Positions 38,885 through 56,710 of a DNA stretch of 64,000 nucleotides are shown here, piece by piece (position 1 is the stretch's first letter; each line of letters starts with the position of its first letter). Position numbers and translations under genes: made by a program. Source of the DNA: Natrinema sp. CBA1119. GTDB lineage: Archaea; Halobacteriota; Halobacteria; Halobacteriales; Natrialbaceae. The stretch covers positions 868,001 to 932,000 of the forward strand of contig NZ_PDBS01000001.1 in assembly GCF_002572525.1 (NCBI RefSeq), read 5' to 3'. The notes beneath the pieces are model-generated. The model ran no database searches. It worked only from the letters and a program-made list of their open reading frames with translations, and was not told the origin of the DNA.

Positions 38885-39385
38885 ATGGATGCGACCGCCG
38901 ACGAACTGGCCGGCGTGGTCGATCTCTTTGGCGGGCTGACCCGCGAGGAGCTGGAGCGGGCGCTCGCCGAAGCGGCCTACCGCGCCGACGGGCAGGCCGT
39001 CGACGACGGGGCCCTCGAGACGGCGATCGACGAGGCGCTCGAGTCGTTCGCGCTCGTTCGGTACGATCTCGCCGGTCGGGACGAGACGTCGACGACCGCG
39101 GACGACGAAGCGCTATTGGTTCCCGGTCCGACGGCGTTTCCGACGGTGCCGGAGCACGCGGAAGACCTCCCACACATTCTCGACGTCGAGCGGCGTCGGC
39201 CCGCTCGCGAGCCGCTGGGCGAGGCGGCCCGGGAGCGCTTCGTCGCGGCCGCCGACGAGGCCGTCACCAAGGGGGACGCAGCGCGACTCCGAACCCTGCT
39301 CGACGTCAGCTACGACATCGAGGCGTGGGCCCCCGTCGATCTCGCGGACGAACGGACGCGACTGGAGGACACCCTCGAGGAATGA
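38885..39385 (+). CDS. Conserved haloarchaeal hypothetical protein
   Basis: A 166-residue acidic protein, MDATADELAGVVDLFGGLTR. It is mostly helical with a DELAGVVDLFGGLTREELERAL start that I know from haloarchaeal proteins of unknown function (DUF7109 type, by memory). The Nudix gene overlaps its stop as ATGA (39382-39385), so the two are translationally coupled and may act together. Confidence 0.7.
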   Translation: MDATADELAGVVDLFGGLTREELERALAEAAYRADGQAVDDGALETAIDEALESFALVRYDLAGRDETSTTADDEALLVPGPTAFPTVPEHAEDLPHILDVERRRPAREPLGEAARERFVAAADEAVTKGDAARLRTLLDVSYDIEAWAPVDLADERTRLEDTLEE

Positions 39386-39972
39386 CGACGAGACTGACCC
39401 TCGATCCGATCGCGGCGTACGAGCCCACCGAGATCACCGATCAGGAGTACGACGCGGCCGTCCTCGCGCCGATCGTCGACCGCGACGGCGAGGACCACCT
39501 GCTCTTCACCCGCCGGGCCGACCACCTCGGCGAACACCCCGGACAGATGAGTTTTCCCGGCGGCGGGGCCGAGTCGATCGACGAGACGATTCTCGAGACG
39601 GCGCTCAGAGAGGCCAACGAGGAGATCGGCCTCGAGCGCAGCGAAGCCGAAGTCGTGGGCCAACTCGATGACATCCGGACGGTCACCGAGTACGCCGTGA
39701 CGCCCTTCGTCGCGCACGTGCCCGATCGGGAGTACGTTCGCGAGGAGAGTGAGGTCGCCGAAATCGTCGTCCTCCCCCTCTCGGGGCTGCTCGATCCGGA
39801 CAACTACGAGTACGAGCGCCGGAGCCACCCCTACTACGGCGAGATCGTGATTCACTACTTCCGCGTGAACGGCTACACCGTCTGGGGTGCGACGGGACGG
39901 ATTCTGGTGCAGTTGCTCGAGTTGGCGACGGCGTTCGAAGCGCCCGAGAAAGTCGATCGGTCGGAGTTCTAA
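39382..39972 (+). CDS. Nudix hydrolase, CoA pyrophosphatase-like
   Basis: A 196-residue Nudix enzyme. The Nudix box runs over residues 61-84 with the REANEEIGL core at 76-84, and the upstream HPGQMSFPGGG (52-62) matches the CoA-specific UPF0035 motif. It would split CoA or its derivatives into phosphopantetheine and 3',5'-ADP. It overlaps the previous gene by four bases. The gap after it contains the structured repeat A. Confidence 0.88.
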   Translation: MTTRLTLDPIAAYEPTEITDQEYDAAVLAPIVDRDGEDHLLFTRRADHLGEHPGQMSFPGGGAESIDETILETALREANEEIGLERSEAEVVGQLDDIRTVTEYAVTPFVAHVPDREYVREESEVAEIVVLPLSGLLDPDNYEYERRSHPYYGEIVIHYFRVNGYTVWGATGRILVQLLELATAFEAPEKVDRSEF

Positions 39973-40463
39973 CGGGCCCGATTCGTCCGGTTTCGTTCGA
40001 CAAACGATTTCTTGAGGGTTCGTTCAGAGCGCACAGGGATACTTCTGCACAGTGTCGCCGATCTACGTCTCGCTCCGGACCGATCAACCGACGTGCCGTG
40101 GCGCGCGCCTGGCCGCGGTGAGTCGCCGACGAACCGCGGGCTAAACTCGTGCGAGGGATGAGCGAACGCCGAAGGCGTGAGTGTTAGCGCGGAACCTCCG
40201 GTTCCGCGAACCATACGAACGGCGGCTCCGCCGCCGTGAGTAGAAATCGGTTGGGGAGGACGTGGCGATTCACTGTTGCCACGATAGCAGAGCGCTTCAT
40301 TATGCGTCTTCTCGTCAAACAACCCGTTCGATAAACAGACATCGTCAACAGATCGGGACGGCCGAACTGCCGACGATCAGATTCACTCGAGGTCGCGTTC
40401 GAACGCCGCAGTTGCGTCTCGCGTCCTTGTCGATATCGTCGACGACCCTGCAATGTCGGCCGT
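39973..40463. other. Convergent gap with structured repeat A
   Basis: A 491-base gap without genes, the longest in the window. It contains the structured element at 40082-40298. The stretch ACAAACGATTTC before the element (about 40000) is also echoed before copy B. Short open frames here are out of step with the structure and look random. Confidence 0.7.
40082..40298 (+). repeat. Dispersed structured element, copy A
   Basis: A hairpin-rich sequence shared with 55045-55203. Shared stems: H1 CCGCGGT/ACCGCGG (40113-40119 with 40133-40139), H2 ACGCC/GGCGT (40166-40170 with 40174-40178) and H3 CGTGGC/GCCACG (40261-40266 with 40278-40283, 11-base loop). Between H2 and H3, copy A has an extra arm of about 60 bases with a 9-bp hairpin (CGCGGAACC/GGTTCCGCG, 40188-40208) and a 7-bp hairpin (ACGGCGG/CCGCCGT, 40219-40237). 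Conserved single-stranded blocks are GAGGGATGAG and TGGGGAGG. Strand assigned by analogy only. Confidence 0.7.
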
Positions 40464-40934
40464 TTACAGCCCCTCGAGCGACCGAAGCTTCTGTTCGATG
40501 TCCGGCGGGGCGGCGCTGGGGCCGTCGCGCACGCGATGATCCGGAATGAGAAGCGGGGCGGGGTTCTCGTCGAGGGCAGTTCGGACGAGGATGATGTCGT
40601 CGTCGTTCTCGTGATCGAGGCCCGACGTCATCCGCGCAAGCGTCTCGACGGTGACCTGATCGCCGTAGGGAATCTCCTGAACCCCCTCGAGGACCGCTCG
40701 CTGGTCGGTCGGCATGGTCATTGCGACCTGCACGTCGTCGAAGGTGATCGGCTCGAGGCCGTCGAGGTACTCGAAGATCCGATCGAGAACGGCGTGGTCG
40801 TCCTCGGCACCGTCGTCGGGAATCTCCGGGAACGAGACGCTCAGGACTCGTCCGCTGGCGGCACCAATCTGGACGTACCGATCGAGGTACGGCGATTCCC
40901 GCGCGTAGATTCCAGCGTCCGTAACGTCCTCCAT
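40464..40934 (-). CDS. MGMT-like protein without the alkyl-accepting cysteine
   Basis: A 156-residue protein with the DNA-binding domain of O6-methylguanine methyltransferases (EIPYGDQVTVETLARMTSG, then VRTALDENPAPLLIPDHRV). The active-site PCHR motif reads PDHR (131-134), so Cys is replaced by Asp. It cannot accept alkyl groups as MGMT does. Cys-less relatives (ATL proteins, usually Trp at this place) mark damaged bases for excision repair; that role is inferred. Haloarchaeal members may be a separate branch. Confidence 0.82.
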   Translation of the reverse strand: MEDVTDAGIYARESPYLDRYVQIGAASGRVLSVSFPEIPDDGAEDDHAVLDRIFEYLDGLEPITFDDVQVAMTMPTDQRAVLEGVQEIPYGDQVTVETLARMTSGLDHENDDDIILVRTALDENPAPLLIPDHRVRDGPSAAPPDIEQKLRSLEGL

Positions 40935-53747: not shown

Positions 53748-53769
53748 ACACCACCGCCGACCGGTGTGT

Positions 53770-54957
53770 ATGGTCGACGACCGGTCGCCTCGAGCGTGGC
53801 TCCCGCACAACTGGCGGCGAGTCTTCACGACGCGCGCAGCCATCGTGCTCGTCCTGCTCGTCGCGCTGCTCTCGGTCGCAACCGCAGTCTTCAACATCGG
53901 GACCAACGCCGTGGGCGGCCCGCTCGAGGAGTACGTTCCCGTCGCGGTCCAGAGCGCCGCCGCGTTCACCGGCGCGCTCACGGGGTTCATGATGGTCGGG
54001 AGCGCGCTCGCGCTCCGACGTGGTCTCCGAACCGGCTGGTGGGCGTCGCTGTTACTACTCCCGCTGACCGCCGCCCAGGGGTTGCTCCAGTCGAGTCCGT
54101 ACTCGTTCCCGCTGGTCGTCCTCTCGATCGTTTCGATGCCGATTCTGCTGGTGACCCGCAAGCGGTTCGACAAACCGCTCGCCCTGTCGACGACGCAGAT
54201 CGCGGCCGGCGCATCGCTCGTCGGCGTCCAGCTGTACGGCACCATCGGCGGCTACGCGCTCCGGGAGGAGTTCGACGGCATCAACAGCATCGTCGACGCC
54301 TTCTACTTCACGCTGATCACCTCGAGTACGGTCGGGTACGGAGACGTAACGCCGAACCAGGGCTCGACCGAGGCGATGCTGTTTACCATGTCGGTGCTCC
54401 TCCTGGGAGTCGCCAGCTTCGGTATCGCCATCGGGGCGCTCGTCGGTCCCGTCATCCAGGATCGCATCACCAAGACACTCGGAAAAATGACCGAATCACA
54501 GCTCCAACTGCTCGACGAGCACATCCTCGTGCTCGGCTACGGCGAACTGACGGAACCGATCGTCGACGAACTCGCGGACAGCGGCCGGGAGTTCGTCGTC
54601 GTCACCAGCGACCGGGAGGTCGCGACGCCGCTCACTGACCGAGACATTCCGGTGGTCAACGGCGACCCCAGCGACGAGGAACCGCTCCAGCGTGCGAAGA
54701 TCGACCGCGCAGCCGCGATCCTCGTCGCCACGAACCACGACGCCGAGGACGCGCTGACCGTCCTCACCGCCCGCGAACTCGCCCCGAACACCCGCATCGT
54801 CGCCGCCGCGACCGACCGCGAGAACGTCAAGAAACTCGAGCGCGCCGGCGCGGACGCGGTGATCAGTCCCTCGCAACTCGGCGGCCACCTGCTCGTTCGA
54901 TCGGCGCTGGGAAGCGACGAGAGCGGGTTGATCGATCGGATCCTCGAGCGGGAGTGA
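53770..54957 (+). CDS. Potassium channel with TrkA-N (RCK) domain
   Basis: A 395-residue ion channel subunit. About six hydrophobic segments cover residues 22-235, the last two flanking the selectivity filter TVGYGD at 187-192 (SSTVGYGDVTP). An RCK/TrkA-N domain follows from about 248 (HILVLGYGELTEPIVDEL), with an NAD-binding GxGxxx loop, then VVNGDPSDEEPL and AGADAVISPSQLGGHLLV. The six-TM layout suggests a voltage-gated-like channel, though no Arg-rich S4 is obvious. It gates K+ flux, vital in a salt-in organism. Confidence 0.9.
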   Translation: MVDDRSPRAWLPHNWRRVFTTRAAIVLVLLVALLSVATAVFNIGTNAVGGPLEEYVPVAVQSAAAFTGALTGFMMVGSALALRRGLRTGWWASLLLLPLTAAQGLLQSSPYSFPLVVLSIVSMPILLVTRKRFDKPLALSTTQIAAGASLVGVQLYGTIGGYALREEFDGINSIVDAFYFTLITSSTVGYGDVTPNQGSTEAMLFTMSVLLLGVASFGIAIGALVGPVIQDRITKTLGKMTESQLQLLDEHILVLGYGELTEPIVDELADSGREFVVVTSDREVATPLTDRDIPVVNGDPSDEEPLQRAKIDRAAAILVATNHDAEDALTVLTARELAPNTRIVAAATDRENVKKLERAGADAVISPSQLGGHLLVRSALGSDESGLIDRILERE

Positions 54958-55270
54958 AATCCTTGCAGAGTAAACAAACGGATTCGTTTTGATCCAATCG
55001 CGTAGAACACGTTCAGCACGTCGAAGAGACGTATCACTCCGAACTAATCAACCGACGTGCGGTGGCGCGCGCTGGGCCGCGGCGAACAGATTGTGAGCCG
55101 CGGTCTGAAGCCGTGTGAGGGATGAGTGAGCGCCGTCAGGCGCGATCGAATCGGCTGGGGAGGGCGTGGCGCTTCCCTGTTGCCACGATAGCAGGACGCT
55201 TCGTCTCACCCAATCCCATCAAAATGCACGCAGTTCCAGCAGAAGACGGTATCACAGACGCAAACGTCCG
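54958..55270. other. Convergent gap with structured repeat B
   Basis: A 313-base gap between convergent genes. It holds the structured element 55045-55203. The preceding AACAAACGGATTCG (about 54973-54986) resembles ACAAACGATTTC before copy A. No gene seen. Confidence 0.7.
55045..55203 (+). repeat. Dispersed structured element, copy B
   Basis: The compact form of the element at 40082-40298. H1 is CCGCGGC/GCCGCGG (55077-55083 with 55097-55103); copy A has T-A where this has C-G at the closing pair. H2 is GCGCC/GGCGC (55130-55134 with 55139-55143); copy A has A-T where this has G-C. H3 is CGTGGC/GCCACG (55165-55170 with 55182-55187) with an 11-base loop as in A. Copy B lacks the two extra hairpins of A. 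Identical or near-identical blocks include ATCAACCGACGTGC and TTGCCACGATAGCAG. Confidence 0.7.
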
Positions 55271-56710
55271 CTAGCGGTGGCGTCCGCGGTGGACGATCGC
55301 CACGTCCGCCTCGAGATCACTGAGCTTCCGAAACGTCGGCGGCGAGACGAACCGCGAGGCGGCCGACCGGTCGGTACTCGAGCCGACGAAACAGACGTCG
55401 TACCGGGGCGCGACCCGAGACAGGTAGGACTCGACCGACGCGTTGGCGACGTGGGTCTCGAAGCGGCCCGAGAACGCGTCGACGAGGTCCGCGAGCGTCC
55501 CCTCGGCCGCGCGGCGGCGCGACTCGCGGTCGATACAGGTGCAGACGCTGATCGGTCGGCCGGACCCGGTCACCCGGATCGCGAAGTCCAGCATCGCTCG
55601 AGCGGTGTCACCGGCACCGCGGACCGCGACCAAACTGGTCTCCCACCGCCGTCGCGGGCTCCCGTTCGAGCGGAACGCGATCACGTCGATCTCGCTGTCG
55701 AACAGGCCCGTGAGAAACGATGAGAGGCCCCCACTCTCGCGTTCGGCGTACGGTGCGACGATGAGATCGCAATTCTGCTGGCGGGCGGTCTGCAGGGTAA
55801 GCCCGGCGGACTGCCCGCCGCCGGCCGCGACGACGACCTCGCAGGGGACGTCGTACGCGTCCGCGAGTTCGTCCGCGAACGACTCGAGGCGCTGCCCGGC
55901 GTCGCTGGCCGCGCGTTCGGCCGGGGCCAGTTCCTCGCTCCCGTCGTCCGCGGCGGCCTCGGTACCGGCGGGATCGTCGTGCTGCTCGGCGTCGTCCTCG
56001 TCGACCACGTCGAAGAGGACCACCTTCCCGGCGTCGTGTGCGCCGGCGATCGACGCGGCGAAGCGGGCGACCGTCTCGCCGCCGTCAGCCATCGGAACGA
56101 GGACGTGATCGTCGCCGCCAGTCGTCCCGTAGAGGTACTGCGCGCGCTGCTCGTAGAAGTGACTCCGCCAGAGGACGAACGCGCTCGCGACGAACGAGCT
56201 CGTGACGACGATGCCCAACACGTAGGCGAACTGCGCATTTCCGGTCACGAGCACGAGCAAGGCGGTCGAAAACGCCGTCGGTTCCTCGAGGTCAAGCCCC
56301 CACGTACAGAGCCCGGTAAAGAAGATAGCGAGGGCGGCCCCGACCGCGCTGACACCGCCGCCGGTCAGTCCGGCCGCGGCCGTGAGTTCGAGCGCGAGCC
56401 AGCCACAGAGCGCGCCGACGGTCATGCCACCGACGAACTTCCACGGCGTGGCGTACTTCCCCTCCGGATCGGCGAAGAGCGTGTACGTGCCCGACGCCAG
56501 CGGCGGAAACAGCAGGAACGAGATCTCCGCCGTCATGTTTGTCAGCCACGTCACCGCCGCGATCAACAGCGGGACGAACACCAGGACCGAGAGATGGAGG
56601 AGGTTCCCGGTGTGCTCGAGCCACCGGACGAAGGAATCGAGTTCGCGTCGCTCCAGCCGTCGCAGTCGACTCGCGAGCGCGTGCAGTCGCGCTCGCACCC
56701 CCTCGAGCAT
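55271..56710 (-). CDS. HPP-family membrane protein fused to UspA domains
   Basis: A 479-residue protein. The first 190 residues form an HPP-type membrane domain with five to six helices and the loop ADPEGKYATPWKFVGG (the family motif region). Residues about 200-475 hold two UspA-like domains (VLVPMADGGETVARFAAS and SLVAVRGAGDTARAMLD). HPP proteins are linked to nitrite or other anion transport in plants and bacteria; the halophile substrate is unknown. UspA fusion recalls the APC permease in this window. Confidence 0.85.
   Translation of the reverse strand: MLEGVRARLHALASRLRRLERRELDSFVRWLEHTGNLLHLSVLVFVPLLIAAVTWLTNMTAEISFLLFPPLASGTYTLFADPEGKYATPWKFVGGMTVGALCGWLALELTAAAGLTGGGVSAVGAALAIFFTGLCTWGLDLEEPTAFSTALLVLVTGNAQFAYVLGIVVTSSFVASAFVLWRSHFYEQRAQYLYGTTGGDDHVLVPMADGGETVARFAASIAGAHDAGKVVLFDVVDEDDAEQHDDPAGTEAAADDGSEELAPAERAASDAGQRLESFADELADAYDVPCEVVVAAGGGQSAGLTLQTARQQNCDLIVAPYAERESGGLSSFLTGLFDSEIDVIAFRSNGSPRRRWETSLVAVRGAGDTARAMLDFAIRVTGSGRPISVCTCIDRESRRRAAEGTLADLVDAFSGRFETHVANASVESYLSRVAPRYDVCFVGSSTDRSAASRFVSPPTFRKLSDLEADVAIVHRGRHR

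Follow-up and report, generated by a model that had tools for sequence, protein, structure and literature searches.

A folded, modular intergenic repeat with exchangeable hairpin arms in haloarchaeal genomes

The locus and its two copies

The window, by which is meant here the whole stretch of 64,000 nucleotides analysed from Natrinema sp. CBA1119 (NZ_PDBS01000001.1, positions 868,001 to 932,000), contains two copies (A and B) of a structured non-coding repeat. Both lie on the + strand and each stands between convergent genes, as the original prediction had stated: copy A between a NUDIX gene (39382-39972) and the gene at 40464-40934, and copy B between a TrkA_N/Ion_trans_2 gene (53764-54957) and a HPP/Usp gene (55270-56710). 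The motif shared by the copies occurs twice in the window against 0.00 occurrences expected from shuffles. The features are as follows.

40094..40300, +, copy A, folded core with an inserted extra arm (cmsearch R1, 108.6 bits, E 6e-32)
40113..40139, +, copy A, variable arm H1 atop helix P2, with tandem G-A pairs (inverted repeat I3; alignment)
40153..40162, +, copy A, conserved block GAGGGATGAG (sequence; near-invariant alignment columns)
40166..40178, +, copy A, arm H2 (sequence)
~40183..40243, +, copy A, extra modular arm of two hairpins, inserted at H2 (inverted repeats I6 and I4)
40261..40283, +, copy A, hairpin H3 (sequence)
54958..55270, +, copy B, intergenic insert of 313 bp (orthologous site in 29 congeners)
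55008..55246, +, copy B, full repeat extent, conserved in Natrinema copies (nhmmer extent; conservation profile)
55058..55204, +, copy B, folded core without the extra arm (cmsearch R1, 155.2 bits, E 8e-47)
55077..55103, +, copy B, arm H1 (inverted repeat I1)
55130..55143, +, copy B, arm H2 (sequence)
55165..55187, +, copy B, hairpin H3 (sequence)

The paired base changes first noticed between the two copies are present in the sequence. Copy A closes H1 with T-A and copy B with C-G, and the first pair of H2 is A-T in copy A (ACGCC-GAA-GGCGT) and G-C in copy B (GCGCC-GTCA-GGCGC), while H3 is identical in both (CGTGGC-11 nt-GCCACG). The extra arm with two hairpins that had been described in copy A was likewise recovered by inverted-repeat search. 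In Natrinema copies the repeat extends beyond the core by ~50 nt before and 45–75 nt after it. Single-sequence folding gave z = -3.16 for copy A, better than shuffled sequences, and z = -1.06 for copy B, which is no better than shuffled, so that the case for the fold rests on comparison and not on folding energy.

The gene beside copy A (40464-40934, - strand) encodes a methylguanine-methyltransferase DNA-binding domain of the O6-methylguanine methyltransferase type (Pfam PF01035). The expected PCHRV motif reads IPDHRV, the catalytic cysteine being replaced, and the predicted product looks like an alkyltransferase-like protein.

Family size and range

A covariance model was built from 40 aligned copies with a folded core of ~147 nt. 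It found 108 matches in this Natrinema genome, which makes the initial description of a two-copy element an underestimate; all of them fall on the main chromosome (4.09 Mb), the other contigs being free of matches, and 86 loci were used after split matches had been joined. Relatives also carry many further copies, the lack of which would have spoken against the original prediction. The 29 congeners have 0 to 105 matches per genome, with none in four genomes and with copy numbers similar to this genome's in the closest species. Within the Halobacteria, 144 of 292 genomes have at least one match (E 1e-6 or better), and the 30 positive genomes of a phylum-wide sample all belong to the same haloarchaeal order, no match having been found outside it in that sample. 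Named carriers include Natrinema, Natronococcus, Natronorubrum, Halosimplex, Halococcus, Halogranum, Haladaptatus, Halorussus and Salinibaculum. The viral contigs and phages searched had no match and plasmids only two records, for which reason viral spread was rejected.

Vertical inheritance of one 'master' RNA gene in single copy was also rejected, since one-copy genomes carry their copy at different places, presumably (the names come from reading the proteins) between cobalamin-type genes in some genomes and thiolase-/aminotransferase-like genes in others. At L411, L412 and their relatives (genus g27) the single copy is antisense to both flanking genes, which we take to resemble cbiG and the precorrin-4 methyltransferase gene of cobalamin synthesis. 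The window had no match in Rfam release 15 at the gathering threshold, in agreement with the first impression that no named family fits, and a permissive E-value gave nothing credible in 19 further related loci. No description of the repeat was found in the open-access literature by topic or by sequence motif, a search that leaves novelty unproven; the family is apparently previously undescribed.

Fold and strand-specific selection

The predicted fold comprises a base helix (CGCGCG/YGYGCG) that bears the variable arm H1, followed by H2, which is built on tandem sheared G-A pairs, the G-rich linker GGYTGGGGAGGGYGTGG and a 3' hairpin. In 123 distinct copies, standard pairs make up 93.8% of pair cells compared with 78.9% in shuffled and 13–55% in slid alignments, and 455 cells are changed on both sides compared with 165 (shuffled) and 40–86 (slid partners), counts that overstate the number of events because the sequences are related and the arms travel as modules. 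The first alignment, made without the model, agrees with these results. Additionally, 27 sequences from other families, aligned separately, bring out P2, H1 and H2 again, supported by covariation within that set. Covariation is thus far above chance. The original prediction had ascribed such paired changes to selection on structure, which holds in that the covariation is real, but part of it stems from whole arms exchanged between copies and not from independent paired mutations.

Among pairs that vary on both sides, G-T was observed 169 times (249 expected from column composition) and A-C only 19 times (127 expected). Since an A-C on the + strand is a G-T on the other, neither a duplex cruciform nor palindrome correction would yield this asymmetry. 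H2 contains two successive tandem GA/GA steps (GAT-GA-GY-GA-GC / GC-GA-RC-GA-ATC) and H1 contains one, their G and A columns being near invariant in the alignment. The tolerance of G-T, the rejection of A-C and the retention of tandem G-A together argue for selection on one strand; on this comparative evidence the predicted fold is under selection on the + strand, as RNA or as single-stranded DNA, RNA being the likelier of the two. Covariation with G-U tolerated and A-C rejected, the pattern of a structured RNA, is what the repeat displays.

The linker GGYTGGGGAGGGYGTGG (40249-40265 and 55153-55169 in the window) is the most conserved single-stranded block. Its four G runs might fold into a two-layer G-quadruplex, which the high K+ of the haloarchaeal cytoplasm would favour.

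Placement, neighbours and possible transcription

With gene calls from a custom caller trained on the window, none of the 84 copies placed in this genome lies inside a called gene; the neighbouring genes are convergent in 36 cases, co-directional in 37 and divergent in 11, against a background of 135 convergent among 624 intergenic regions (tiles of the congener G008). All 14 pairs of copies less than 700 bp apart are arranged tail-to-tail; four or more of these pairs are the same sites in two species, which leaves ~10 independent ones. Such pairs also occur between divergent and co-directional genes, and the direction of genes therefore does not explain the arrangement. Copy density along the chromosome is uneven (contig C1, bins of 1/16 chromosome; chi2 24, 15 df), with 7–9 copies per bin at ~0.5–2.5 Mb and 0–6 elsewhere, and it possibly follows the conserved part of the chromosome.

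Copies take no preferred orientation relative to co-directional genes (20 sense against 17 antisense in this genome, 12 against 16 in G008), nor do they show a replichore-like strand bias. A function tied to replication strand or transcription direction was rejected on this lack of bias. A TATA-like box within 70 nt upstream is absent from all 212 Natrinema copies, and an own promoter in this genus was rejected on that ground. The g13 genomes (probably Halorubrum) differ in that a TATA-like box precedes most copies by ~10 nt. It lies close to the 5' end, too near to it for a normal start there, and for this reason was not counted as proof of transcription.

These observations bear on a first alternative, in which the repeat would be a host-functional structured RNA whose copies are transcribed, independently or in 3' untranslated regions, and act in trans or protect or terminate transcripts. 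The strand-specific fold, the single-stranded blocks conserved across the class, the enrichment between convergent genes and the g13 box all speak for it, but the Natrinema copies without a box, the even orientation relative to co-directional genes, the position of the g13 box and the four congeners that lack any copy speak against it, and we consider such a role unlikely. The proposal of a candidate unknown RNA family is upheld as far as structure and the lack of an Rfam match are concerned; what has emerged is an interspersed repeat family and, at most, a candidate RNA gene.

At 148 loci no gene recurs beside the copies, neither a transposase nor an RNA-guided nuclease nor any other. The model has no match near the four Y1 transposase (Y1_Tnp) genes of this genome, copy number shows no positive relation to Y1 transposase number (rho -0.29, 29 congeners), and the copy-rich congeners G020, G004, G006, G027, G008 and G021 (26–105 copies, 105 in G008 and 89 in G021) have no Y1_Tnp match. 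Stand-alone guide-RNA scaffolds are known elsewhere, and the repeat might be such a scaffold or a PATE, i.e., a remnant of an IS200/IS605-type transposon. PATEs are abundant in another haloarchaeon and have neither terminal inverted repeats nor target duplications (PMC3119063), and the ends of the site A and site B inserts are also free of terminal inverted repeats. Against the three sets of results on neighbours and Y1 genes, we consider such an origin very improbable. The repeat also differs in its insert ends from a MITE, the kind of element that had initially been named as the contrary outcome.

Site occupancy across species

At site B the repeat is absent from about half of the 29 congeners, in which the convergent stop codons are 0–31 bp apart, whereas this genome, G021 and G015 hold a 313-bp stretch with the repeat. 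Site A follows a similar pattern, empty in many congeners and filled in others, and the filled sites A and B in congeners measure about 300 bp. Empty and filled versions of orthologous sites imply that sites gain or lose the repeat and that it was mobile. At the empty sites the surrounding intergenic DNA differs as well, which blurs the ends of the repeat and any target duplication.

All 39 sites mapped between this genome and G008 carry the repeat in both and in the same orientation, in a sample biased by the choice of stretches around G008 copies (~1/5 of the chromosome). From this coverage without an empty site, the share of sites that differ is estimated at about one in six at the most. 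The retention of the same sites in the two genomes would also fit a host function. G021 shares 10 of its 15 best copies with this genome, which has other content at four of the others, one of these being occupied by an unlike palindromic repeat. The repeat therefore was mobile in the past and, as far as the sequences tell, its sites are now mostly fixed among close relatives.

At L460 (C1 ~1902450-1902810) a different palindromic repeat (CATCCGCGAGCGAAGCGAGCGG...GAGAGAGCATCGCTCTCTC) is found where G021 has the element.

Expandable arms and their exchange

Some copies carry nested hairpin modules at fixed insertion points, namely the H1 loop, GAGG^GATGAG and H2. The modules of the extra arm of copy A recur in other copies, and the G008 ortholog of this arm is a longer version. 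Module loops occur in both orientations among copies (GGAACC-TCC-GGTTCC and GGAACC-GGA-GGTTCC), which is what the inversion of a palindrome gives.

The loop orientations, together with the lack of replichore bias and a tail-to-tail pairing that resembles REP pairs, would suit an element acting at the level of DNA (REP/BIME-like), with hairpins or cruciforms serving chromosome organisation and covariation produced by palindrome correction during replication. Correction and cruciforms treat both strands alike, yet A-C is far rarer than G-T, and the G-A mismatches that palindrome correction would erase are kept; this second alternative is accordingly given little credence.

Arms were compared in 32 ortholog pairs of this genome and G008 by best-of-69 matching. 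For the outer flank (-100 to -60) the ortholog is the closest match in 28 of the 32 pairs, whereas a copy elsewhere is the closest match in 25 pairs for the H1 arm and in 27 for the H2 arm. Best-of-69 matching is biased to paralogs for short segments; the same matching applied to a control, the 50-nt stretch just upstream, favoured the ortholog 18 to 9. A single case illustrates the process: a 103-nt arm in G008 is 7% different from the arm of an unrelated copy in this genome, whereas the ortholog of that G008 copy has an unrelated arm of 42 nt. Sequence comparison of this kind shows that hairpin arms have been exchanged between fixed loci. Gene conversion has been documented as efficient in Haloferax volcanii, which is a polyploid haloarchaeon (PMC8223754, PMC11276520).

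Proposed origin and maintenance

The reading we favour, and hold to be somewhat probable, is that of a non-autonomous interspersed non-coding repeat whose folded strand is recognised and which gene conversion reshuffles. The repeat would have spread as a non-autonomous mobile element, recognised by a trans-acting machinery as a folded single strand of RNA or DNA. It would now move rarely and survive where it is least harmful, in intergenic places and above all in those between convergent genes. Arms may be swapped from copy to copy by gene conversion in the polyploid cells, with the invariant blocks that flank each arm as the short homologies. The lack of a recurrent neighbour gene, of a relation to Y1 transposases and of terminal inverted repeats speaks against this reading, whose mobilisation mechanism we infer. 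A bolder and rather doubtful version would treat the family as class-wide folded RNA elements that form a fixed socket for exchangeable arms, in which the ~100 sites of a chromosome would draw on one common stock of circulating arm cassettes, passed on by copying between loci, perhaps via an RNA or single-stranded DNA intermediate.

Relation to known repeats and RNAs

The BOX elements of Streptococcus pneumoniae are short dispersed intergenic repeats that are predicted to fold if transcribed, have a modular middle of variable number, are over-represented between convergent genes and move slowly at present (PMC3049150). The haloarchaeal repeat is likewise dispersed, intergenic, non-coding, modular and foldable, and so it has the characters of a BOX-like element, a likeness of kind. 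Unlike BOX, its fold shows strand-specific covariation, its arms are exchanged between fixed loci, its pairs are always tail-to-tail and it ranges over a whole archaeal class; a sequence relation to BOX is not expected. PATEs and SMRs of Haloquadratum walsbyi are transposase-free repeats with palindromes, and PATEs lack terminal inverted repeats and have near-terminal palindromes common to IS605-type transposons (PMC3119063). The present repeat resembles PATEs in being haloarchaeal, transposase-free, palindromic and devoid of terminal inverted repeats, but it has no detected tie to a transposon (Y1_Tnp genes) and its palindromes lie mid-element in a conserved multi-helix fold. With REP/BIME it shares an intergenic location, many copies and inverted pairs, although it is much larger, has several helices and is not linked to a RAYT-type transposase. 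Conserved single-stranded blocks and covarying helices relate it to the structured non-coding RNAs of Rfam; unlike those families it has no Rfam match and is a candidate RNA only.

About one in two of the haloarchaeal genomes sampled carries this large class of folded repeats, which is apparently undescribed and occupies intergenic stretches left blank by current annotation. Arm exchange between fixed loci offers a natural record, readable in sequence, of gene-conversion events between sites dispersed over the genomes of polyploid archaea, and the strand-specific fold makes a clear prediction that is cheap to check by RNA-seq and structure probing. It also points to a pitfall: covariation in a repeat family can arise from swapped modules, and tests of strand asymmetry (G-T versus A-C) are therefore needed before a new RNA is called.

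The g13 subfamily

In the g13 genomes the element is longer and has a 3' domain (CAAAGGGGC...GGGGCTTTG) around a long variable stem. Several g13 copies are followed by 57-bp tandem repeats. The copies of G182, G106 and G198 (L436-L455), as well as L430 and L434, have these repeats (CTGGGGCTTTGG...TTTATAAGCGAGCGG) directly downstream. Each repeats the 3' end of the element together with the TATA-like box, and the tandem repeats look like core-deleted copies of the unit.
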